In this document: in pieces, positions 15,909 through 30,954 of the stretch
How the letters are laid out: each line of letters starts with the position of its first letter
How positions within the stretch are numbered: position 1 is the first letter of the stretch
Origin: a virus
Reading direction: 5' to 3' (one strand)
DNA length: 30,954 nt
Virus record (IMG/VR): IMGVR_UViG_3300047550_004187
Location: 1-30,954 of that record
The notes under the pieces: generated by a model
The model's database searches: none
The model's input: only the letters and a program-made list of their open reading frames with translations
What the model was told of the DNA's origin: nothing
Program-made: the position numbers and the translations under genes

Positions 15909-18863
15909 TCACTCAAAAAAATACTTTACAACGTTTGTAACATCAACATCAACCGATCTCATCTTAGAAAGAATGTCTGGATCAACTAAGTCTGGATGTA
16001 CCCACCAATCTTCAAATGTGTATTCATCATTTGGAGCAACATCTTTAACTGCAAGTTCATATCCAAGAGAACTTAAATACCTTCTGGACTTTAAACGATA
16101 TGAAGACGATGCATCTGCCGAATAATCATGTTCATATGTAATAATAGCAAATTTATATTTTTCAAATGGTATCGATGTTAATATTTCAAATGTAGTACTT
16201 GCAGGTTCACAATCTAACTGCAAATAATCATAGACTGTTCCTTTATTATTTTCATCAAGAAGTTTTTCATAATCAATTTTCGTTGCATCTTTACAAAGAA
16301 TTGTGTTTTTTCTTTGCTCTGAGAACATTTTACAAAGATCTTCACGAATTTCAATTGAAATACCATCCCAATCATACATCGTTTCAAGAAGAGCAGTATT
16401 ATTTTGATAGAATGGTTCTTGAGCACCGATTTCAAGGTAAAGTCCATTCTTTTTGCCATTGAGCATAGCAAGAATAAACAAATCTTGATATGCCTGAGAA
16501 TAGTTTTTTTCTATTTTTTCAGACCCAGGGAACTTAAATTTCAAAGAATCAAATTTATTTTTATTATACTTTATTACTTCTTCAGGTATGTGACCACTAC
16601 CAAGTCTCATTAAATTATCTTGAATAGATTGAAAATGAATTTGATCAACTTCATAATTTTCCTTAATTTCTCTCAGTAATTTGCGTGTTTCCTGTCCTTT
16701 ACCCCACCAATATCCAGAAATTGCTTTCTCATAAAGAAGACCATATTTACCAGGATATTCTATATTACTAATAGTAGGTTTAGAATCAAAATCACAAATA
16801 CTTAATCCAAGAGATGCATACTTATATGAGTCATTCCACTGAGACCTTCTCTCATGGAATCTTGCAAGAAGATAATATGCCTCTGGTCTCTTTGGGCATA
16901 AACATATAGCCTGCTGCAATAGAGAAACAGCAGTTCCATCACGAGTTCCTTGTTTATCATAACAGTGATGACTCTTTAAGAGTGCTTCATATGCAAAATC
17001 ATCATCAGTTGCTCTCTCTGCACATCTAAGGAAATAAGAAAGCGCAGGGGCAGTATGTCCCTGTTTTTCATACCAAAGTCCAAGATTAAAGTTGTGATGT
17101 GGATTTTCAGTATCCAAAGAATACTGGTATAGTAACTGCTCTAAATCAGTTTTATCAATAAAGTTAGATTCTTTTTTAGAACTATCTTCTATAGAAGTTG
17201 CAGATGTTTCTTCTCCAGAAATAACAAAAGATTTTTTAATAGGAATTGTCCCGATAAATTGATCAATAGTTTTCATATTTCCATTCTTCTTCCACCAATT
17301 ATAAACATATTCAGAAGCGTATATATGATTCGGTTTTTGTCCATTTTCCAATTCAAGATCATTTACATCTGTAGTTGGAATCTCAACGTTTTCAACAAAT
17401 AATGGGAAAGTATAAACTTTACCAACGTTTGTGAAAAGAATATTTTCACCAATTGGCATAACATCAACATCTTTCAGCTCAAGATGGAATGTATCACCAA
17501 TACAATAATTATCAATCAGTCTTTTAGCATAATCACGATTCATAATATATGCAGTTTCTGACCAGTCATCCCACTTACGATCTCTAAAATTTACATCGTC
17601 AAAATCACCACGAATAGTCATTAACTGAACACATTCACAATCATCAGGAAGTCTTTCAATAAATTCTTCCCAAGTAAAATTCCAATAATCTACAGTCTTA
17701 AGACTCAAATCATCTTCACAGAAAAATGCATACTCAGATTCTTCACTTTCATACCAAGTCTTGATAGCTTTCAAATGAGAAACAATACATCCCTGTGTTG
17801 GTCCAGTAAGTTGATAGACATACTTACCAGTAATTACATCATCAGATTCTGAAAATCTTTTTGACTTAATTGCTTTAGGTACAATATCATACTTAGCAAA
17901 TTGATCCTCTAATTGCTTTTGTCTATCTACACAATCTTCAAGTGTGACATAATAAACTGGAGGGAAATTTTCTAAATTATTCATTTCAGTTGCAATATAA
18001 TTTTGTGAGTTTATTTTTTTAATATTCCATTTTGTTTTTGGAGGAATATAATGATTTTCTGGATTAGAAAAATATTGTTTATTTTTAATAATATGATATT
18101 GTGCTATAGCATATTCCAATTGATACTTTACTTGTTCTCCGGAATAATACTGAGACAGATTATTCTCCATTTGTTGAATAGCATAAGCATCGTTTTCATC
18201 GTTTCCGACAAAATGTTCCGTTCTTTTAGAATCTGGATGGGGAATATGAATTAAATTATGATCATAGTTCAGTTTTGTATGATTTAATCCTAAGGATTCT
18301 AATCTAATTTGTAACTCCTCATCCTCAAATCCATAATATTCACCCAGATCTTCATTATATCCACCACACTTAAAGAAATTTTCTTTTGTAATGTGAAGTA
18401 ATCCAATCAGAGATTTGTAATATGGACTGTAAATATTGCAATATTCATAAATTTGATCAAAATTCATTCGACCAAAATCAACCATAGAAACACCATTTTC
18501 TAAGTACTCTGGACTCTGATAATTTGGTTTACCAGAAACAAAAGTATTTTCATCAATTGGATAAGCCTTAAAGAAATTATAATATGGATTAATAATATAG
18601 TCAATATCAAACTTCATAATTGAATCCCCCGTTGCAATACTTGCAGCTAGATTCAAAGGTTGTGGTTGATTAAAATATTTTTTATTTGGTACTGTAATAA
18701 CTTTTATTCTTGGATCTAATTCTGTAAGATGACTTAATGGTTCATCAGAACTCCAATCAACAATAATAATTTCTTTAACTTCATCAAAAAGCAACCAAGA
18801 TTGTAAAGAAATTGATAGTGGTTTATTACGATTTTTACATGCGGTAATTAATGATACGTTCAT
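15909..18863 (-). CDS. Four-part fusion: GT2 + GT25 + TPR + FkbM-like methyltransferase
   Basis: 984 residues. Domain 1 (about 1-230) is a GT-A family 2 glycosyltransferase: SLITACKNRNKPLSISLQSW, a DxD-type site in KFDIDYI, and YYGFEDEELQIRL. Domain 2 (about 300-500) is GT25-like (LPS/procollagen galactosyltransferase family): PVYYVTLEDCVDRQKQLEDQ, TQGCIVSHLKAI and FFCEDDLSL, where CEDD is the metal site. Domain 3 (about 575-745) is a TPR array (NPHHNFNLGLWYEKQGHTAP, PEAYYLLARFHERRSQWNDS). Domain 4 (about 780-975) resembles FkbM methyltransferases, with YLEIGAQEP as the SAM loop and YDYLQLDCE. It probably builds and caps a glycan on a protein or surface polymer. No frameshift is seen, so the fusion looks genuine. 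It is the last gene of the glycan block. Confidence 0.88.
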   Translation of the reverse strand: MNVSLITACKNRNKPLSISLQSWLLFDEVKEIIIVDWSSDEPLSHLTELDPRIKVITVPNKKYFNQPQPLNLAASIATGDSIMKFDIDYIINPYYNFFKAYPIDENTFVSGKPNYQSPEYLENGVSMVDFGRMNFDQIYEYCNIYSPYYKSLIGLLHITKENFFKCGGYNEDLGEYYGFEDEELQIRLESLGLNHTKLNYDHNLIHIPHPDSKRTEHFVGNDENDAYAIQQMENNLSQYYSGEQVKYQLEYAIAQYHIIKNKQYFSNPENHYIPPKTKWNIKKINSQNYIATEMNNLENFPPVYYVTLEDCVDRQKQLEDQFAKYDIVPKAIKSKRFSESDDVITGKYVYQLTGPTQGCIVSHLKAIKTWYESEESEYAFFCEDDLSLKTVDYWNFTWEEFIERLPDDCECVQLMTIRGDFDDVNFRDRKWDDWSETAYIMNRDYAKRLIDNYCIGDTFHLELKDVDVMPIGENILFTNVGKVYTFPLFVENVEIPTTDVNDLELENGQKPNHIYASEYVYNWWKKNGNMKTIDQFIGTIPIKKSFVISGEETSATSIEDSSKKESNFIDKTDLEQLLYQYSLDTENPHHNFNLGLWYEKQGHTAPALSYFLRCAERATDDDFAYEALLKSHHCYDKQGTRDGTAVSLLQQAICLCPKRPEAYYLLARFHERRSQWNDSYKYASLGLSICDFDSKPTISNIEYPGKYGLLYEKAISGYWWGKGQETRKLLREIKENYEVDQIHFQSIQDNLMRLGSGHIPEEVIKYNKNKFDSLKFKFPGSEKIEKNYSQAYQDLFILAMLNGKKNGLYLEIGAQEPFYQNNTALLETMYDWDGISIEIREDLCKMFSEQRKNTILCKDATKIDYEKLLDENNKGTVYDYLQLDCEPASTTFEILTSIPFEKYKFAIITYEHDYSADASSSYRLKSRRYLSSLGYELAVKDVAPNDEYTFEDWWVHPDLVDPDILSKMRSVDVDVTNVVKYFFE

Positions 18864-18872
18864 ATTTTTACA

Positions 18873-20240
18873 TCAAGAATCTTTGTGCTGGATAATTACA
18901 TTGGACCCTTCATACCCCCAAATTATCTCATAATTTATTTCTTGGATGAGAGAATTTAATTCATCTAAGGTTCTTCCACATTGCTGCAAATTTTGATCAT
19001 AGTATTCTAAAAGTATTTTTGGCTTATATTTTTTAATAGTTTCAATACCTCCGATTATTATATTATATTCAGAACCTTCTGTATCAATTTTTATTAAATC
19101 TATTTTCGTATCTAAAAATAGATTGTCAATTGTATTTGTTTTCACCAAATAATCATAATAATCGTCTCCAGTAAATCTAGTTGGATTTTCACCAAGGGTA
19201 TTAAGTCCTCTATGAGAATGACATATTTTTAAGTTAGATTCTCCAACCCTATCAGATAAAGCATCTTCACTAACGATTACATTTTTTATTTGATTTAATT
19301 CTAAGTTTTGTCTAAGTAAAGTACAATTCCAAGAATCTGGTTCAAAACTATACCAAAGTGTTTTTGGATAAAACTTTGATAATAATGTAAAGCATCCACT
19401 CTGAGCCCCTATATCCAAGATAGTATAATCATCTTGAATATGTTTCATAAACTCATTAATTACATCAAGTTCACATATGGTTTCATTAAGATTATCATCC
19501 AACCAAGTTTTTGAATTTTGCTGTTGGGTTTCTTTTGAAACTAAAATTTTAAATTTATCCGTATATGAATATAAAGAATATTGTGTATTTTTATATTTAC
19601 AATCTTCTACTTTATTATTTCTAGATGGTGCAGTAATCGACTCATACTTTTCAAAGTTGTTTTGAAACAAAAACTGATCTAGTTCATCTCCAGTATTGCC
19701 ACCTTCATAATCATTAGATTCATCATATTCTGCGTATATATCATAAACTCGATTTAAATGATTATTCAAACTCTTTAAAACATTTAAATCATTTCCTTGA
19801 GTATCTGTTTTAAGAAGATTGATATAATCATATTGAATATTATCAAGTATATAACGTAATGGTATTACATCTACATTATATACCTCATCAATACTATTAA
19901 CAAATCTTCCTTTTGGTTTTCTTAAAGAAGATGTTCCGGAGTCATATCCAGTTGCTGGACCTCCAAGACCATAAAAAACTTTTTGAGTTGGACTTTGAAC
20001 ATTATCAACAGCCGCCTCAATTAGATAACACCTACCTTTAAAAGGAGAATTGTTTAGATATTCTTCACAAGATCTAAAATTATTTGGATGAGGTTCAATA
20101 CCAATAACAAAAACATCATTATCAGAACTCAACCAATTAATTGAGTTTGGCATGTTTGTTGATAAACCGATATCAAATCTTAGTTTAAGACCTGTTGATA
20201 ACTTTTGATTAATAAAATCAAAATCAATTTGTTTTCTCAT
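18873..20240 (-). CDS. Double FkbM-type methyltransferase
   Basis: 455 residues with two copies of the FkbM fold. Copy 1 (about 1-215): LRFDIGLST, VIGIEPHPNNF and INLLKTDTQGNDLNVLKSL. Copy 2 (about 245-450): YTILDIGAQSGCFTLLSKF, YSFEPDSWNCTLLRQNLELN and IDLIKIDTEGSEYNIIIGGI. Both have the acidic residue after the SAM loop and the K-x-D-T-[EQ]-G motif, but copy 1 has DIGLST in place of the usual D-[IV]-G-[AG]-x-x-G, so its SAM loop may be impaired. FkbM enzymes O-methylate sugars or macrolides. It sits between the fusion glycosyltransferase and the GT11 enzyme and probably methylates the same glycan. Confidence 0.88.
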   Translation of the reverse strand: MRKQIDFDFINQKLSTGLKLRFDIGLSTNMPNSINWLSSDNDVFVIGIEPHPNNFRSCEEYLNNSPFKGRCYLIEAAVDNVQSPTQKVFYGLGGPATGYDSGTSSLRKPKGRFVNSIDEVYNVDVIPLRYILDNIQYDYINLLKTDTQGNDLNVLKSLNNHLNRVYDIYAEYDESNDYEGGNTGDELDQFLFQNNFEKYESITAPSRNNKVEDCKYKNTQYSLYSYTDKFKILVSKETQQQNSKTWLDDNLNETICELDVINEFMKHIQDDYTILDIGAQSGCFTLLSKFYPKTLWYSFEPDSWNCTLLRQNLELNQIKNVIVSEDALSDRVGESNLKICHSHRGLNTLGENPTRFTGDDYYDYLVKTNTIDNLFLDTKIDLIKIDTEGSEYNIIIGGIETIKKYKPKILLEYYDQNLQQCGRTLDELNSLIQEINYEIIWGYEGSNVIIQHKDS

Positions 20241-20280
20241 TTATTAAAATCCCAAAAAATATATGTAAAAAAATTTAATT

Positions 20281-21162
20281 TTATATATTATATATTACTC
20301 GATTCCAATCCTCTGGAAATAAATCTTTTAAATTAATCATAACTTCAAAATCTTCATGAAGATTATTCATATGAGATTCACCGAACCAAGGATCTGGATA
20401 ACAGACCACAGGACTCTCTGCCAACCATGCACCCCACCAACCAAAAGAACTATTACCAATAATATGTTTTTGGCACATAGACATTAAACAAAGATCATAA
20501 AGATTTGAATTATTTGAAACTAGATTAGTATCTTTATTGTAATTTACAGGATCATAAGACTTGGAAATAAGAATATTGTTCGCTGAAAATATTTTTTGAT
20601 TCTTGCACCATTCATAATCATCAGAAAATACTATTGCATAATCGTAGTTACCAACAAGATCAAAACATTTCTGAAAGTATTCTTCGTTAGGTATTGGAAA
20701 TTCATGAGGTCTTCCTATGTTATCACCTCTCCTCACTTGTATTGCTAAAAGCGTTTTGTTTTTAAATTGAGATATAAACTCAAGACATTTGGATTGAATA
20801 TGAGGTAAAAAAGTGAAATTCTCTTTAATTAAATTTTTACAGTGTTCAAAGTATTTTTCACTTTGAAAATAACCAAGATAGTCAGTATTATCAGATGCAT
20901 TATTAAAAATATTTTCATCAAAATGAAACTGTCTTTCTTTTATAAAATTTTTCCTATCGATGCGAATAATATTTTCTTTCTTTAAAGTCTTTAATTCAAA
21001 TGCTTCAAACAACTGATGATGTATCCAGGCATTTTTAAAAGTACTTGGAGGAATTGCAATTTCATATCCATACTTAGAGTGCAAACCAACTAAAAAAGCA
21101 TATTGAAACATTTGATTTCCAAGTCTTCCAAATTCTCCAAGAGTATTAAAAGAAATAGTCAT
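20281..21162 (-). CDS. GT11 alpha-1,2-fucosyltransferase-like glycosyltransferase
   Basis: 293 residues, full length for GT11. Motif I is FGRLGNQMFQYAF (11-23); the donor-binding motif is AIQVRRGDNIG (a variant of HxRRxD, with Gln-Val for the usual His region); and motif III is NSSFGWWGAWLAES. The family transfers fucose from GDP-fucose to galactose-type acceptors. No GDP-fucose synthesis genes lie in this window, so the sugar donor would come from the host or another part of the genome. It begins directly after the previous gene's stop. In phages such enzymes are thought to alter host surface glycans or decorate virions. Confidence 0.9.
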   Translation of the reverse strand: MTISFNTLGEFGRLGNQMFQYAFLVGLHSKYGYEIAIPPSTFKNAWIHHQLFEAFELKTLKKENIIRIDRKNFIKERQFHFDENIFNNASDNTDYLGYFQSEKYFEHCKNLIKENFTFLPHIQSKCLEFISQFKNKTLLAIQVRRGDNIGRPHEFPIPNEEYFQKCFDLVGNYDYAIVFSDDYEWCKNQKIFSANNILISKSYDPVNYNKDTNLVSNNSNLYDLCLMSMCQKHIIGNSSFGWWGAWLAESPVVCYPDPWFGESHMNNLHEDFEVMINLKDLFPEDWNRVIYNI

Positions 21163-24851: not shown

Positions 24852-25496
24852 TTAAATTACTGTATATTCAAAATAACTACCACCATAAACAGTTGTGGGC
24901 CCAGCGTTTGATGTATTCTGAGCCCACTGAAATGCAAAATTACCAGTCGCTGAAGGAATTACTACTGCATCCAATTCTATAATAACCAGACCAGAAGCAT
25001 TATCAGTTAATGCAATATCAACAGTATCTAAAGATGTAGTGAGACCAAGTGCCAAAAATGGGTTTGCGCCAGTACCATTAGTATTAGTAACTCTTACATA
25101 TTTTAAAACAGAAGACGTTGTTGGTCCAGAAAATCTATACTTTAAGTCAGCAGCAGCAGTTGTTGTATAAAATATTTTACCACGAATTGCATATTCAACT
25201 CCAGAAGTCATCGAAAAAAGTAATTCACTATCATTTGCTGTAGTCACATTATTATTTCGACTTTCATCGGTTGTCTTTTTAACTAAAGTCCAACTTGATG
25301 CTGGTCCAATTGTTCCCTGAAGACCCTGAGTACCTTGATTACTTAATCCCTGAGTTCCTTGAGTTGATTGAACACCCTGAAGTCCTTGAGTTCCTTGACG
25401 ACTTTGAGTTCCCTGAAGTCCCTGAATACCTTGAGTTCCTTGGATGCCCTGAGCACCAATAAAATTACCACCAATAATAGAACTTAAGAATGCCAC
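24852..25496 (-). CDS. Collagen-like tail-fibre protein
   Basis: 214 residues. Residues about 14-66 are collagen-like Gly-x-Gln triplets (GAQGIQGTQGIQGLQGTQ and on), with Gly replaced by Ser twice (SRQ, STQ) and one 5-residue phase slip (GLSNQ), ending GTIGPASS. The rest is a beta-rich head: WTLVKKTTDESRNNNVTTAN, VEYAIRGKIFYTTTAAADLK, NFAFQWAQNTSNAGP and a YFEYTVI end, the type of trimeric head found on cyanophage fibres. The triplet region should form a stiff trimeric stalk. The Y position is nearly always Gln, not Pro. A perfect TATAAATA lies 23-30 nt upstream. Confidence 0.88.
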   Translation of the reverse strand: MAFLSSIIGGNFIGAQGIQGTQGIQGLQGTQSRQGTQGLQGVQSTQGTQGLSNQGTQGLQGTIGPASSWTLVKKTTDESRNNNVTTANDSELLFSMTSGVEYAIRGKIFYTTTAAADLKYRFSGPTTSSVLKYVRVTNTNGTGANPFLALGLTTSLDTVDIALTDNASGLVIIELDAVVIPSATGNFAFQWAQNTSNAGPTTVYGGSYFEYTVI

Positions 25497-25567: not shown

Positions 25568-26149
25568 ATGAGTGATTTTTTGAAGAAAGGTTGGCATTAT
25601 CTTCCAGAAATTATTTCTCAAGAAGAAGCAATACAAATAAAATATCAAAATCTTTGTGGTGCAGTAAAAGATCTTGGTAATTTAAATGGTACTTGGGATC
25701 CTGAAAGAGGAAGAGTTTTATTTTGTTATGCACCACCATCCTGCACATATGTAATGAAAAGAATGCAACCAATACTTGAGGAATTAGTCGGTGAAGAACT
25801 TATTCCAACCTATTGGTTTTCTACAACTTATCATAAAGGTGGTTGGATGAACTGTCATACTGATCGTCCATCTTGTGAAGTATCAGTGACGATGAATATT
25901 TGTGGTGATGCAAAATGGCCTATCAAACTCAAAGATCTAACAGATAAAAGAAGAGAAGTTATAACACCAGTTGGTCACGGAGTTGCATATCTTGGGACAA
26001 TCGTTCCTCATTGGAGAAGTCCTTTAAGAACTCACGATAATGATCGTTTTATGCAATTGTTTCTACACTTTGTAAGAAAAAACGGTCAGTATGCAGACTA
26101 TGCATATGACCGTAATGATAAATGTTATACTCTTTTAACTCAAGGTTGA
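25568..26149 (+). CDS. 2-oxoglutarate/Fe(II) oxygenase (aspartyl/prolyl-hydroxylase-like)
   Basis: 193 residues from ATG 25568 (an earlier TTG would add 5 residues). The iron-binding set is CHTDRPSCEVSV (His97, Asp99) and the distal His148 in IVPHWRSPL, with Arg150 as a possible 2-oxoglutarate anchor. Strands around them (STTYHKGGWMN, VSVTMNICGDAKWPI, FMQLFLHFVR) fit the double-stranded beta-helix fold. Such enzymes hydroxylate protein side chains or small molecules. It stands alone on the plus strand, facing away from the collagen-like gene and overlapping the tail of the next fibre-assembly gene. The substrate is unknown. Confidence 0.8.
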   Translation: MSDFLKKGWHYLPEIISQEEAIQIKYQNLCGAVKDLGNLNGTWDPERGRVLFCYAPPSCTYVMKRMQPILEELVGEELIPTYWFSTTYHKGGWMNCHTDRPSCEVSVTMNICGDAKWPIKLKDLTDKRREVITPVGHGVAYLGTIVPHWRSPLRTHDNDRFMQLFLHFVRKNGQYADYAYDRNDKCYTLLTQG

Positions 26150-26703
26150 GATTGTTCTAGTGGGGGAAGAGGATCATTAATCATATGAATTCCTCTCAAT
26201 TCTCCTACAAAATTAGCATAAACTGATTCATTAACAGATACGTCTGCTGGGGCAGCAGGAATTTCTGTTGGGAATGGTTGAACTGTAGGAAGATCTCTAA
26301 GTTCTTGCCTCCAATCGGTGAATTCCTGTGATAATGCCACACCAGTTTCTGTTGAACGAATTACCACCCAATCAGTTTCATCTAAAAGTTGATTGCGATA
26401 TTTTCTTACACTACTTTGTCTTTTTATAGATTGTCTTGAATCATAAGCATCAATTTCATCATCCCATTCTTGTTGAGTCAGAATTGAAAGACCTGGATTT
26501 ACTTCAGTAATGACTGTTTCGTCAGGTACATTTGAAAGGAAAAATTCAATTCCGTTTTCATCAATTAGTGAATGAACTCCCACAATACCTTCAGCAGTAA
26601 ATCCAACTACACCAAACATTGGTTGTGCAAATTGTGCTGGTGTTGTTGCAAATACTCCTGGTCTGTCTCTATCAACCCAATAATGTTTAATAAGTTGTGT
26701 CAT
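26140..26703 (-). CDS. Fibre-associated protein with tail-assembly-chaperone domain
   Basis: 187 residues. The N-terminal part MTQLIKHYWVDRDRPGVFAT then PAQFAQPMFGVVGFTAEGIV is a beta-rich stretch of unknown type. Residues about 108-150 carry the chaperone unit RKYRNQLLDETDWVVIRSTE then SQEFTDWRQELRDLPT, the same family as the 66-residue protein at 24640-24840. A Pro-rich C-terminus follows (PFPTEIPAAPADVS, INDPLPPLEQSQP). It overlaps the convergent oxygenase gene by 10 nt at its end. It is preceded by CATAAATA (26729-26736). It probably helps assemble the giant repeat fibre or its neighbours. Confidence 0.78.
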   Translation of the reverse strand: MTQLIKHYWVDRDRPGVFATTPAQFAQPMFGVVGFTAEGIVGVHSLIDENGIEFFLSNVPDETVITEVNPGLSILTQQEWDDEIDAYDSRQSIKRQSSVRKYRNQLLDETDWVVIRSTETGVALSQEFTDWRQELRDLPTVQPFPTEIPAAPADVSVNESVYANFVGELRGIHMINDPLPPLEQSQP

Positions 26704-27413: not shown

Positions 27414-27421
27414 TATTTAGT
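27414..27421 (-). promoter_or_regulatory. Late-type promoter for the prolyl-hydroxylase-like gene
   Basis: On the minus strand this is ACTAAATA, 23-30 nt upstream of the start codon. It overlaps the stop codon of the repeat protein gene. Confidence 0.45.
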
Positions 27422-30400
27422 TTGCGTTTGAGACTGCTGTTAAAAAAGTTCTTGCTTGAGATAACTTAGGTGTTGGTGTTGTTACTGTTTCAGTGGAGAA
27501 ATCTAGACGATCAATGGTGGAAAGTTGAGGAGGAGCACTACCACCACCAAAATAACCATAAGAACTACTTGAGACTGCTGCTAAACCTTGTTTTATTCTG
27601 GATAACTGGGGTCCTGGTACTGTTGCGGTTTCTGTGGAAAAATCTAGACGGTCAATGGTGCAAACATTACTAGTTAAAGGATCTAGACCGCCAGCAAAAT
27701 AACCATAAGAACTACTTGAGATTGCTGTTAAAAAATTTCTTGCTGAAGATAACTGTGCTCCTGGTACTGTGACAGTTTCTGTAGAAAAATCTAGACGGTC
27801 AATGGTACAAAGAGCACTAGAAGGGGAACTATTACCACCACCAAAGTAACCATAAGAACTACTTGATGTTGCTGATAAAGCAAGTTTTGCTGAAGATAAC
27901 TTAGATGTTGGTTCTGTGACGGTTTCTGTGAAGAAGTCTAGACGGTCAATAGTGCAAACACTAGTAAGAGGAGGAAAATAACCACCTCCAAAGTAACCAT
28001 AAGAACTACTTGAGATTGCTGTTAAAAAATTTTTTGCTTGAGATAACTTAGGTGTTGGAACTGTTACGGTTTCTGTAGAGAAATCTAAACGGTCAATCGT
28101 AGAAACATAAGCAGGAAGAGTATTAATACCACCACCATAAAAACCATAAAAACTACTTGAGGTTGCTGCCATTCTTTGTTTTCCTTGAGATAACTTAGGT
28201 GTTGGTACTGATACGGTTTCCGTAGAGAAATCTAGACGGTTTATGGTGCAAACGGCACTGGGAAGAATAAAACCTCCAGCAAAATACCCGGCAGTCGCAG
28301 TACCAACTCTTTGTACCTGTGTTCCTCCAGAAAGTGCTGTTGATCTAGATCTTGCTGAAGATAACTTAGGTGCTGGTGTTGAAAGAGTTTCTGTAGAAAA
28401 ATCTAGACGCTCAATAAGAGAAACAACAGCAGGTCTAGCGCCACCAGCAATATAACCATAATGATTACTTTGAGTGCCAACTGCTGTCTCCCTATAATCT
28501 GGTAATCTAGGGGCAATTACTGAAGTTAATTCGTTTGAGAAATCTAAGCGATCAATGGTACAAACATAAGTATTAAAACCAATAGGAGGAGAAAAACCTC
28601 CGGCAAAATAAGCATAAGATTTGCTTGAAAATGCTGATAAACCACGTCTTTTCTTAGATAAAAAATATGATGGTACTGAGGCAGTTTCTGTGGAAAACTC
28701 TAAACGTTCAAAGTTATCATAATATAACACTCTACTAACAGCAAAATCTCCACCTCCAAAATACCCATAAGAGTTAGTTGATACTGATGCACAACCCAAT
28801 CTCGCATACTTAAAATCAGTATTTGTTGTTGTTACCAATTCAGTAGAAAAATCCAAACGGTCTAAATTACATCTATATACATCCCCAGTATCTGAACTTC
28901 CAACAAATGTATATCCCCCTCCAAAATAACCATAAGAATTTCCAGAGACTCCAGATCCCCACCAACCTCTTTTAGTCAATTTAGAATTAATAATTGCAAC
29001 ACCATCTGTAGAAAAATCTAAACGATTTATAGTATTGAGTCTCCAAAAGTCAGTTGAAGATGCATCATTAGCATCATAACCACCAGCAACGTATCCATAT
29101 AATTGACTATAAACTCCTGAAGCACCAGTCACACCACTAGCATCTCCGGAAGTCTGTATTCTACCAGTTTTTATCTTAGAATCTGGAGTAGTTACAGTCT
29201 CTGTAGAGAAATCTATACGATCTATAGTACTAATTTGATCACCAGTAGCAATATATCCAAAAGTTTTAAATTCTGACCAATTTAAACTATTTGAATTTTT
29301 ATTTAAAAAAATCTTATTACTATAAATTGCTGATGCTAAAGAACTTCTTGCTTGAGATAACTTGGGCGATGGTGTTGATATACCATATGAATCAGTAATA
29401 AAATCTAATCTATCTATTGTAGAAAACACTCCAGCACCAGGTCTATATCCACCACCAAAATAACCAAAGGCAGATGGTGAATTTGCTACTGCCGCAAAAT
29501 TAGCTCTTGCTTGAGATAATCTAGATAGGAATGCATCTCCAGCTGATACGGTTTCTGTTGAAAAGTCTAGACGATCAATGGTGCAAATAGCAGTAGGAGC
29601 AAAACCTCCAGCAAAGTAACCATAAGAACTACTTGAGACTGCTGCTAAACCTGAAGTTTGTCTCCTTAATCTATTCGGTGCAGTAGCTGCTGGAACTGAT
29701 ACACTTTCTGTAGAGAAATCTAGACGGTCAATTGTACAAACAAAAGTAGGACCAGGAATAGTACCACCAGCAAAGTAACCATAAGAACTATTTGAGACTG
29801 CTGCTAAACCACTTCTTGCTTGAGATAACTGATTTGGTGCTGGTGCTGGTGGTGGTCCTACGGTTTCTGTGGAGAAATCTAGACGGTCAATGGTGCAAAG
29901 AGGACCAGGATCACCACCACTAAAGTAACCATAAAGACTACTTGAGACTGCTGCTAAACCACTTCTTGCTTGAGATAACTTAGGTGTTGGTACTGTTACG
30001 GTTTCTGTGGAGAAATCTAGACGGTCTATGGTGGAAACAACAGTACCAGTAGTTCCACCACCAAAGTAACCATAAAGACTACTTGAAACTGCTGCTAAAC
30101 TACCTCTTGCTTGAGATAACTTAGGTGTTGGGGTTGTGACGATTTCTGTAGAAAAATCTAGACGGTCTATGGTGGAAACGGGAGTAGGAGTTTGACCACC
30201 ACCAAAGTAACCATAAAAAATATAAGGAATATCATATAAAACATTATCAACTTCCTCAAAGGTGGGAGTTGACCTGTAACTGACTGCTTCTAAACCAGTT
30301 CTTGCTTGAGATAACTTAGGTGTTGGTGTTGTGACTGTTTCTGTAAAGAAATCTAGACGGTCAATGGTGCAAACACGAGTACTAGGAGGAAAATAACCAC

Positions 30401-30954
30401 CACCAAAGTAACTATAAGAACTACTTGAAGCTTCTGCTAAATTAGTTCTTGCTTGAGATAATGAAGGTGTTGGTACTGTGACGGTTTCTGTAGAGAAATC
30501 TAGACGGTCTATGGTGCAAACGGAACCGAGAGCAAAACCTCCAGCAAAGTAACCATAAGAACTACTTGAAGTTGCTGCTAATCTATCTCTTGCTTGAGAT
30601 AACTTGGGTGTTATAATTGGAATTGTTATAGTGTCTGTGGAGAAATCTAGACGGTCAATAGTGCAAACAAGAGAAGTAGGAGTCAGAGAACCACCACCAA
30701 AGTAACCATAAGAACTAGTTGAGACTGCTGCTAAACCACTTCTTGCTTGAGATAAAGAAGGTCCTGGTACTGATACGGTTTCCGTAGAGAAATCTAGACG
30801 GTCTATGGTGCAAACGGAACCGGGAGCAAAACCTCCAGCAAAGTAACCATAAGAACTACTTGAAGTTGCTGCTAAATTATTTCTTGCTTGAGATAAAGAA
30901 GGTCCTGGTACTATGACGGTTTCTGTGGAGAAATCTAGACGGTCAATGGTGGAA
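27417..30954 (-). CDS. Giant kelch-like repeat adhesin/fibre protein (5' end off window)
   Basis: The frame is open from the right edge to TAA 27417, at least 1178 residues; an apparent start at 29429 is only an internal GTG (Val). It is built of at least 23 units with core TIDRLDFSTETVTVP, then PKLSQAR, then SSSYGYFGGG. Units are 46-49 residues long (up to about 65 with insertions). The pattern of GG doublet, hydrophobic D-R-L-D strand, T/S turn and L-S-x-A-R strand follows kelch propeller blades, so several stacked propellers are likely. Units near both ends of the visible part are almost identical in DNA, while about 28450-29400 is diverged. The role is probably host recognition. It precedes a prolyl hydroxylase and a fibre-assembly protein, which could modify or fold it. 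Confidence 0.85.
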   Translation of the reverse strand, partial: STIDRLDFSTETVIVPGPSLSQARNNLAATSSSSYGYFAGGFAPGSVCTIDRLDFSTETVSVPGPSLSQARSGLAAVSTSSYGYFGGGSLTPTSLVCTIDRLDFSTDTITIPIITPKLSQARDRLAATSSSSYGYFAGGFALGSVCTIDRLDFSTETVTVPTPSLSQARTNLAEASSSSYSYFGGGYFPPSTRVCTIDRLDFFTETVTTPTPKLSQARTGLEAVSYRSTPTFEEVDNVLYDIPYIFYGYFGGGQTPTPVSTIDRLDFSTEIVTTPTPKLSQARGSLAAVSSSLYGYFGGGTTGTVVSTIDRLDFSTETVTVPTPKLSQARSGLAAVSSSLYGYFSGGDPGPLCTIDRLDFSTETVGPPPAPAPNQLSQARSGLAAVSNSSYGYFAGGTIPGPTFVCTIDRLDFSTESVSVPAATAPNRLRRQTSGLAAVSSSSYGYFAGGFAPTAICTIDRLDFSTETVSAGDAFLSRLSQARANFAAVANSPSAFGYFGGGYRPGAGVFSTIDRLDFITDSYGISTPSPKLSQARSSLASAIYSNKIFLNKNSNSLNWSEFKTFGYIATGDQISTIDRIDFSTETVTTPDSKIKTGRIQTSGDASGVTGASGVYSQLYGYVAGGYDANDASSTDFWRLNTINRLDFSTDGVAIINSKLTKRGWWGSGVSGNSYGYFGGGYTFVGSSDTGDVYRCNLDRLDFSTELVTTTNTDFKYARLGCASVSTNSYGYFGGGDFAVSRVLYYDNFERLEFSTETASVPSYFLSKKRRGLSAFSSKSYAYFAGGFSPPIGFNTYVCTIDRLDFSNELTSVIAPRLPDYRETAVGTQSNHYGYIAGGARPAVVSLIERLDFSTETLSTPAPKLSSARSRSTALSGGTQVQRVGTATAGYFAGGFILPSAVCTINRLDFSTETVSVPTPKLSQGKQRMAATSSSFYGFYGGGINTLPAYVSTIDRLDFSTETVTVPTPKLSQAKNFLTAISSSSYGYFGGGYFPPLTSVCTIDRLDFFTETVTEPTSKLSSAKLALSATSSSSYGYFGGGNSSPSSALCTIDRLDFSTETVTVPGAQLSSARNFLTAISSSSYGYFAGGLDPLTSNVCTIDRLDFSTETATVPGPQLSRIKQGLAAVSSSSYGYFGGGSAPPQLSTIDRLDFSTETVTTPTPKLSQARTFLTAVSNAN
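27430..30954 (-). repeat. Tandem DNA repeat array coding the kelch-like units
   Basis: Units of about 138-159 bp recur throughout, for example a GTTTCTGT(G/A)GAGAAATCTAGACG core followed by GTC(A/T)ATGGTG. The recognisable I-D-R-L-D-F sites fall near 30945, 30804, 30657, 30510, 30363, 30168, 30027, 29889, 29730 and 29577, and then about 13 more to 27417. Spacing is mostly 138-159 bp; one interval of 195 bp carries an insertion. Confidence 0.9.

Follow-up and report, generated by a model that had tools for sequence, protein, structure and literature searches.

Six-blade kelch arrays of cyanophages: silent-site homogenisation of blades and exchange of whole rings

A tandem kelch gene module in a T4-like phage

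The window, that is, the whole stretch of DNA analysed here (30,954 nucleotides), corresponds to an entire IMG/VR record (IMGVR_UViG_3300047550_004187) of a T4-like phage encoding a T4-type baseplate protein, tail tube, gp32, PhoH and ThyX. At its right end, a reading frame on the minus strand (27417-30953) runs to the edge without a stop and encodes 1178 residues, as had been noted in a previous sequence-only reading of the same DNA. The kelch-like character of its units also held: the Pfam kelch profile PF24681 matched the protein above its curated cut-off (E=1.6e-29), the kelch motif (a glycine pair before strand C and the conserved aromatic/Arg pattern) was present, and PHROGs placed the protein in the unnamed family phrog_19111 (E=1.3e-298). 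At least 23 units of 46-49 residues had been proposed. We found 23 unit starts (the final one partial), but unit lengths ranged from 46 to 65 residues, most of the longest units being those that carry the inter-ring linkers.

This gene is the third in a tandem kelch set and contains four rings, the range in the family being two to five per gene. It is directly followed by a conserved 2OG-Fe(II) oxygenase gene (PF13640; 26732-27391, minus strand; Pfam and synteny), and the same strand also encodes a phage tail assembly chaperone or tail-fibre assembly protein (PF16778, phrog_4912; 26140-26703; Pfam and PHROGs) and a tail-fibre-like gene with 9-bp repeats (24852-25496; sequence and PHROGs). Elsewhere, a short match (9-37) at the left end of the window was taken as chance, and a Pfam SpdB match as low-complexity noise. 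In related phages the kelch genes occur in sets of two or three, flanked by baseplate wedge/fibre connector genes on one side and a tail-fibre assembly gene on the other, and genes for a glycosyltransferase, a sulfotransferase, a 280-residue unknown protein and 2OG-Fe(II) oxygenases are interleaved with them. Photosystem reaction-centre genes were present in 13 of the 20 contigs searched, thus identifying these viruses as cyanophages. Among 50,697 phage records searched by tblastn, Synechococcus phage S-SKS1 (Llyrvirus) was the sole isolate match, and a search of 84,980 species genomes of bacteria and archaea detected no relatives. The S-SKS1 proteins, annotated as hypothetical, belong to the same family (phrog_19111) and the same gene module, with the oxygenase, sulfotransferase and tail genes in synteny. 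Their array structure is invisible in the annotation because the record opens inside one kelch gene and the others are in pieces.

Extension of the contig to the right, as the sequence-only reading had advised, was possible with a second sample of the same virus (L003; 99.98% identity over 9550 bp), which lengthened the array by exactly one blade (L003 positions 1-141) and then ended as well. The first 126 bases of this extra blade are identical to those of the next blade (135 of 141 bases over the pair), and both assemblies end at the edge because of this perfect duplicate. The overlap of the two contigs gives 24 blades; although this is exactly four times six, the number of near-identical copies at the right edge is uncertain. 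The motif-to-motif intervals in L003 were long after blades 6 (65), 12 (64) and 18 (57); another interval of 65, at blade 13, represents an insertion inside the diverged ring.

On the basis of these intervals, silent-site comparison, linker comparison and the L003 overlap, the gene could be divided as follows, all on the minus strand and from the N-terminal side. Ring 1 (30279-30953) is homogenised, and one of its blades and the N-terminus lie beyond the window. It is joined to ring 2 (29319-30215), which is partly homogenised, by linker 1-2 (30216-30278; YRSTPTFEEVDNVLYDIPYIF; interval 65), which follows strand A of ring 1 and precedes strand B of ring 2. Linker 2-3 (29262-29318; NKIFLNKNSNSLNWSEFKT), an altered version of the NWPESA-type linker of relatives, leads into ring 3 (28329-29261), which is diverged and silent-site saturated. 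Finally, linker 3-4 (28293-28328; GGTQVQRVGTAT), of the family-wide last-linker type, precedes ring 4 (27420-28292), which is homogenised and terminates in AVSNAN.

Blade counts in steps of six, linkers and the predicted fold

To characterize the family, we collected 120 distinct complete genes (480 residues or longer) from IMG/VR relatives. By machine count, 94 genes had 12 blades, 13 had 18, 4 had 24 and 1 had 30 (112 in total), and three further genes counted at 11 by machine had 12 by eye, so that 115 of 120 genes fitted 12, 18, 24 or 30 blades. The five exceptions had 10, 10, 11, 16 and 17 blades; in four of them the short ring was made of similar blades, and assembly collapse or true deletion is likely there. 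Of the 112 genes counted by machine, 100 had their k longest inter-blade intervals exactly at blades 6, 12 and so on. It should be noted that many of the counted genes come from related phages and are hence not independent; despite this kinship, four separate size classes at six-blade spacing, their linkers sharing one phase, would be hard to obtain by chance. The expectation that unit number differs among related phages was therefore borne out, with the qualification that it changes in steps of six.

The linkers lie between strand A and strand B, and the kelch proteins have strand B first and strand A last, an arrangement needed if the rings are separate, each being closed by a C-terminal strand A. 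Each ring thus appears to open at strand B and to close with strand A, with the linkers at the closing point. In addition, linkers are slot-specific. The last one is of the type ...RVGSATYGYFGGG or ...GSKTYGYFGGG, and the penultimate one in 18-blade genes and in the 24-blade gene L004 is of the type NWPESA..GY and resembles the N-terminus of 12-blade proteins; similarly, the first linker of L004 resembles the N-terminus of the 18-blade protein L041. From this resemblance of linkers to the N-termini of shorter proteins, we infer that rings were added on the N-terminal side.

With regard to the fold, the window protein apparently consists of four six-bladed kelch propellers in series. Profile matches among solved structures were kelch domains, the best being the SAKe6FR design and KLHL12. 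AlphaFold2 gave low-confidence models, with a mean pLDDT of 41 for the window protein (25-row alignment) and 37 for a two-ring relative (40 rows), and a Foldseek search with the window model found no propeller match (best E 0.93), a result treated as uninformative. Consequently, an open solenoid stays compatible with the modelling, and the propeller assignment draws on the sequence profiles and the rule of six, the latter fitting, together with the linker phase, a closed six-blade ring.

Silent sites, blade exchange and ring replacement

The same-codon fraction at residues shared by two blades was used as a measure of silent-site agreement and compared with the expectation from phage codon usage (0.44-0.48; 0.44-0.46 for the outer units). 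In the window gene it reached 0.86 in ring 1, 0.81 for ring 1 against ring 4, 0.78 for ring 1 against ring 2, 0.77 in ring 4 and 0.68 in ring 2, whereas ring 3 showed 0.53 internally and 0.59-0.60 against the other rings. The predicted unevenness of silent divergence was thus evident, and the outer units do share silent sites (0.77-0.86). Their description as nearly identical was too strong for most pairs, however: the blades of ring 1 have a mean amino-acid identity of 72%, and it is only the pair at the contig edge (135/141 bases) that comes close. Likewise, the diverged block is real but comprises six to seven units (∼28422-29423) rather than about ten, approximately one whole propeller (ring 3). 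Most ring 3 blades are ∼54-66% identical in nucleotides to ring 3 of the closest relative, L004; given that the adjacent oxygenase gene has 92% DNA identity between the same two viruses, this looks like a ring that was replaced or has long been independent. A donor search for ring 3 returned the same virus and no other source.

Across the family, the nearest DNA neighbour of 935 ordinary (non-linker) blades was in the same gene in 204 cases and in a different kelch gene of that phage in 190, against expectations of 11.4 and 13.0, respectively, and repeats group by genome rather than by position. When 12-blade genes of the same locus type from different phages were compared, the best match of an ordinary blade had the same index in 11-14% of cases (chance, 8%), as opposed to 40-51% for linker blades; for linker blades of 18-blade genes this value was 50-83%, and it was weaker in the few 24-blade genes (3/18). 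Ordinary blades lose their position across phages, whereas linkers mostly hold theirs. The second ring of one L007 kelch gene matches that of the adjacent kelch gene in this phage at 91% identity, compared with 75% for the first rings, which suggests exchange between paralogs as well.

It might be argued that the rings are simply young, each freshly amplified from a single blade in the manner of WD40 propellers, so that silent identity would reflect recent birth and not ongoing exchange. Such amplification is known in all major propeller lineages, kelch included (PMC9218822), and blades 1-2 at the window edge are a fresh duplicate. Nevertheless, blades are also common to paralogous genes and, at different positions, to other phages, and one-time amplification would not yield the movement of intact rings between near-identical phages that is described next. 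We regard recent birth as an unlikely explanation for the whole pattern; blade amplification may contribute alongside exchange.

The strongest signal was the replacement of a whole propeller between near-identical phages. Cyanophages L055 and L056 on the one hand and L061, L062 and L064 on the other are ∼99% identical over 12 kb, with flanks of 99.6% and 98.6% identity around a single replaced ring of ∼805 bp, and one whole propeller differs. The replaced segment is ring 2 of one kelch gene: codon identity is ∼100% up to the linker, ∼55% across ring 2 and 100% again in the final codons. In a similar way, L053 and L055 differ in the second ring of their kelch genes, and L067 has ring 2 in common with L055 but not ring 1; altogether, 12 ring pairs combined an identity of at least 93% with less than 85% in the adjacent ring. 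The ring combinations A/X (L055), A/Y (L061), B/X (L067) and C/Y (L096) all exist, which requires recombination (four-combination test passed), and five phages with mixed ring combinations indicate that rings reassort. These swaps were seen in relatives of the window phage; none was found between the window phage and a near-identical strain. The duplication or conversion of units proposed in the sequence-only reading is therefore supported with respect to blade exchange, but was incomplete in that whole propellers are also replaced.

The breakpoints of ring swaps were located in the linker, at ...GSKTYGYFGG|G (...FRGSKTYGYFGG|G), and in the N-terminal segment. Diversity-generating retroelements, invertases and site-specific recombinases vary other phage adhesins, and dedicated machinery of this kind could in principle drive variation here too. 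We consider this highly improbable, as breakpoints lie in conserved coding linkers, no reverse transcriptase (RVT_1), serine resolvase or phage integrase domain was detected in 21 records, mostly fragments, and four of the longer contigs carry RecA-family recombinases.

Because the reference sequences are metagenome assemblies, which are poor on repeats, we also considered whether repeat collapse or chimeric joins could have produced the homogeneity, the swaps and the copy numbers, a concern raised by the sequence-only reading itself. Besides the ends of the window and L003 contigs at the 126-bp duplicate, L023 is shorter than L015 by exactly 294 bp (two blades), the junction falling in a near-identical repeat, and marine viral long reads are nine times as rich in kelch repeats as assemblies (PMC9238414). 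However, independent assemblies of the L055 and L061 alleles came from two and three samples, respectively; copy numbers gather at multiples of six over 120 genes, which collapse would blur; and blades differ in their loops yet agree at silent sites. Assembly collapse is therefore real but limited: it may account for a few 10-, 16- and 17-blade arrays and does not explain the L055/L061 swap, and as a general cause it appears very improbable.

Loop variability, proposed mechanism and comparison with known systems

When codon positions were compared within genes, pN/pS was ∼1.8-1.9 following the conserved R (columns 25-26), 1.05-2.1 following the glycine run (columns 42-47) and 0.01-0.26 at core R, D, F and G positions; these values come from simple counting with no likelihood model and do not amount to a formal selection test. 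Short patches that differ between the otherwise similar rings of L007 and L068 (residues 42-48 and 76-83) fall in the same loops. We take the two variable regions of the blade to be the BC and DA loops of kelch domains. In kelch proteins these loops lie on one face, which often binds a partner. Together with the gene context, the variability of the loops makes a receptor-binding role plausible.

A tail adhesin is the probable identity of these proteins, judging from the position of their genes, their length and the N-terminus that they have in common. Alternatively, they may act inside the host, as binding proteins in takeover or counter-defence that were diversified by host factors, given that kelch domains are general protein-binding platforms and that enzyme genes (glycosyltransferase, sulfotransferase and oxygenase) are interleaved with them. 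Such an intracellular role seems unlikely, albeit less so than the other alternatives, because the kelch genes sit between the baseplate/fibre connector and tail-fibre assembly genes, the proteins are very long, an N-terminal motif conserved in 100 of 126 kelch proteins would fit a shared anchor, and virions of phage CBB contain a kelch protein (PMC5259590). The motif was absent from the other proteins of the loci and the N-terminus alone, used as a query among phages, retrieved S-SKS1 only, so that a shared tail anchor is not demonstrable from it.

Taken together, we favor as probable a tail adhesin that is diversified by blade conversion and by exchange of propeller cassettes through general recombination. 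General (T4-type) phage recombination would probably act on repeats and linkers in two modes. In the first, blades of one gene or of paralogous genes would undergo conversion or unequal exchange, which would homogenise silent sites and scramble blade order; in the second, whole propellers would be replaced between phages by crossovers in the linkers and in the conserved segments at the two termini. Crossovers in linkers would swap entire rings with the fold unbroken, and blade exchange, by homogenising rings, may keep them recombinable. Selection would hold six blades per ring and favor change in two loops per blade, taken as one face, and ring exchange would reassort the binding specificity of the tail-attached adhesin, allowing the virus to alter its binding target. 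More tentatively, and with rather more doubt than confidence, the system might be a combinatorial adhesin in which up to three tandem genes offer two to five exchangeable propellers in ordered slots, each slot having its own conserved linker as homology arm; new slots would be added on the N-terminal side, ring exchange would set host range and blade conversion would keep donor and recipient rings recombinable. If the favored reading is correct, uncultured cyanophages vary a surface protein by whole-domain swaps between conserved linkers, with fold geometry limiting copy number. This would provide a clear, testable case of recombination acting on a structural module and a natural collection of binding rings that can be interchanged, and would help explain why kelch genes break metagenome assemblies and have been overlooked.

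Several known systems share part of these features. Marine viral kelch repeats have been described as under-represented in assemblies (PMC9238414). CBB_552 and other phage kelch proteins, one of them in a virion (PMC5259590), and a kelch gene that differs between the co-isolated cyanophages P-HM1 and P-HM2 (PMC3037559) have been reported; the proteins of CBB (CBB_552) and P-HM2 are not close homologs, since S-SKS1 alone matched in the tblastn search of phage records, and ring arrays are absent from the accessible portions of their descriptions. The kelch domain of KLHL12 and the designed six-bladed SAKe6 matched by profile across one ring, but are single rings, eukaryotic or designed, of low sequence identity. 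In recently amplified repetitive beta-propellers (WD40/WRAP, kelch and others), of which viral members are known, blades have high DNA identity (PMC9218822); there, one blade was amplified to a ring, whereas the phage genes have two to five serial rings with slot-specific linkers and ring exchange. A literature search that covered few subscription papers found neither a description of this phage kelch family nor an account of linked six-blade rings that are swapped as cassettes. The closest likeness in behaviour is to the HNWD genes (het-d/het-e/het-r) of Podospora anserina, in which the WD40 repeats of a fungal non-self recognition protein evolve concertedly, both inside a gene and among paralogs, and a few surface positions in each repeat diversify (PMC1805685, PMC2873952). 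The likeness lies in repeats being exchanged within and between genes and in few positions per repeat diversifying; it is one of behaviour and not of homology, and strings of six-blade rings, whole-ring exchange and linker-bounded cassettes belong to the phage family, no HNWD counterpart having been found in the available text of these papers. By this analogy, a hypervariable, concertedly evolving recognition propeller would be of a known kind, and what appears to be new here is the phage setting and the ring as the unit of exchange.

Departures in blade number

The kelch gene at 6046-8553 of L023, when compared with that at 2734-5535 of L015 (contigs of two closely related phages), was found to lack two blades (294 bp), exactly and in frame, and this difference could reflect either collapse during assembly or a true deletion. 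The kelch gene at 60-1805 of L099, another related phage, is diverged and has 5+6 blades; among the exceptions to the rule of six, that is, blade counts in multiples of six, it alone is not composed of near-identical blades.

Added domain and interposed enzyme genes

Two-ring kelch proteins carrying an additional C-terminal domain of ~230 residues were identified in two relatives, L006 (2793-5342) and L010 (7837-10428), the latter showing a weak match to the MAM domain (Pfam). Many relatives have sulfotransferase (PF13469; L061 7720-8544 and its equivalents) and glycosyltransferase genes interposed between kelch genes; their products may act on the fibre or on the surface of the host.

Within the window, a gene cluster at 15909-21162, close to the tail-fibre genes, has among its products a 984-residue glucosyltransferase-like protein, along with one protein resembling a methyltransferase and one that is GT11-like. 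Repeats with a 9-base period occur at 25312-25452, inside a tail-fibre-like gene.

The S-SKS1 record

The linear record of Synechococcus phage S-SKS1 (NC_020851, 1-1226 and 201121-207940; L072 and L073), the only isolate among 50,697 phage records with relatives of the window kelch gene, has its ends cut within a kelch gene, and further kelch genes and an adjoining oxygenase are broken into pieces. For this reason the kelch array of this phage was overlooked in annotation.
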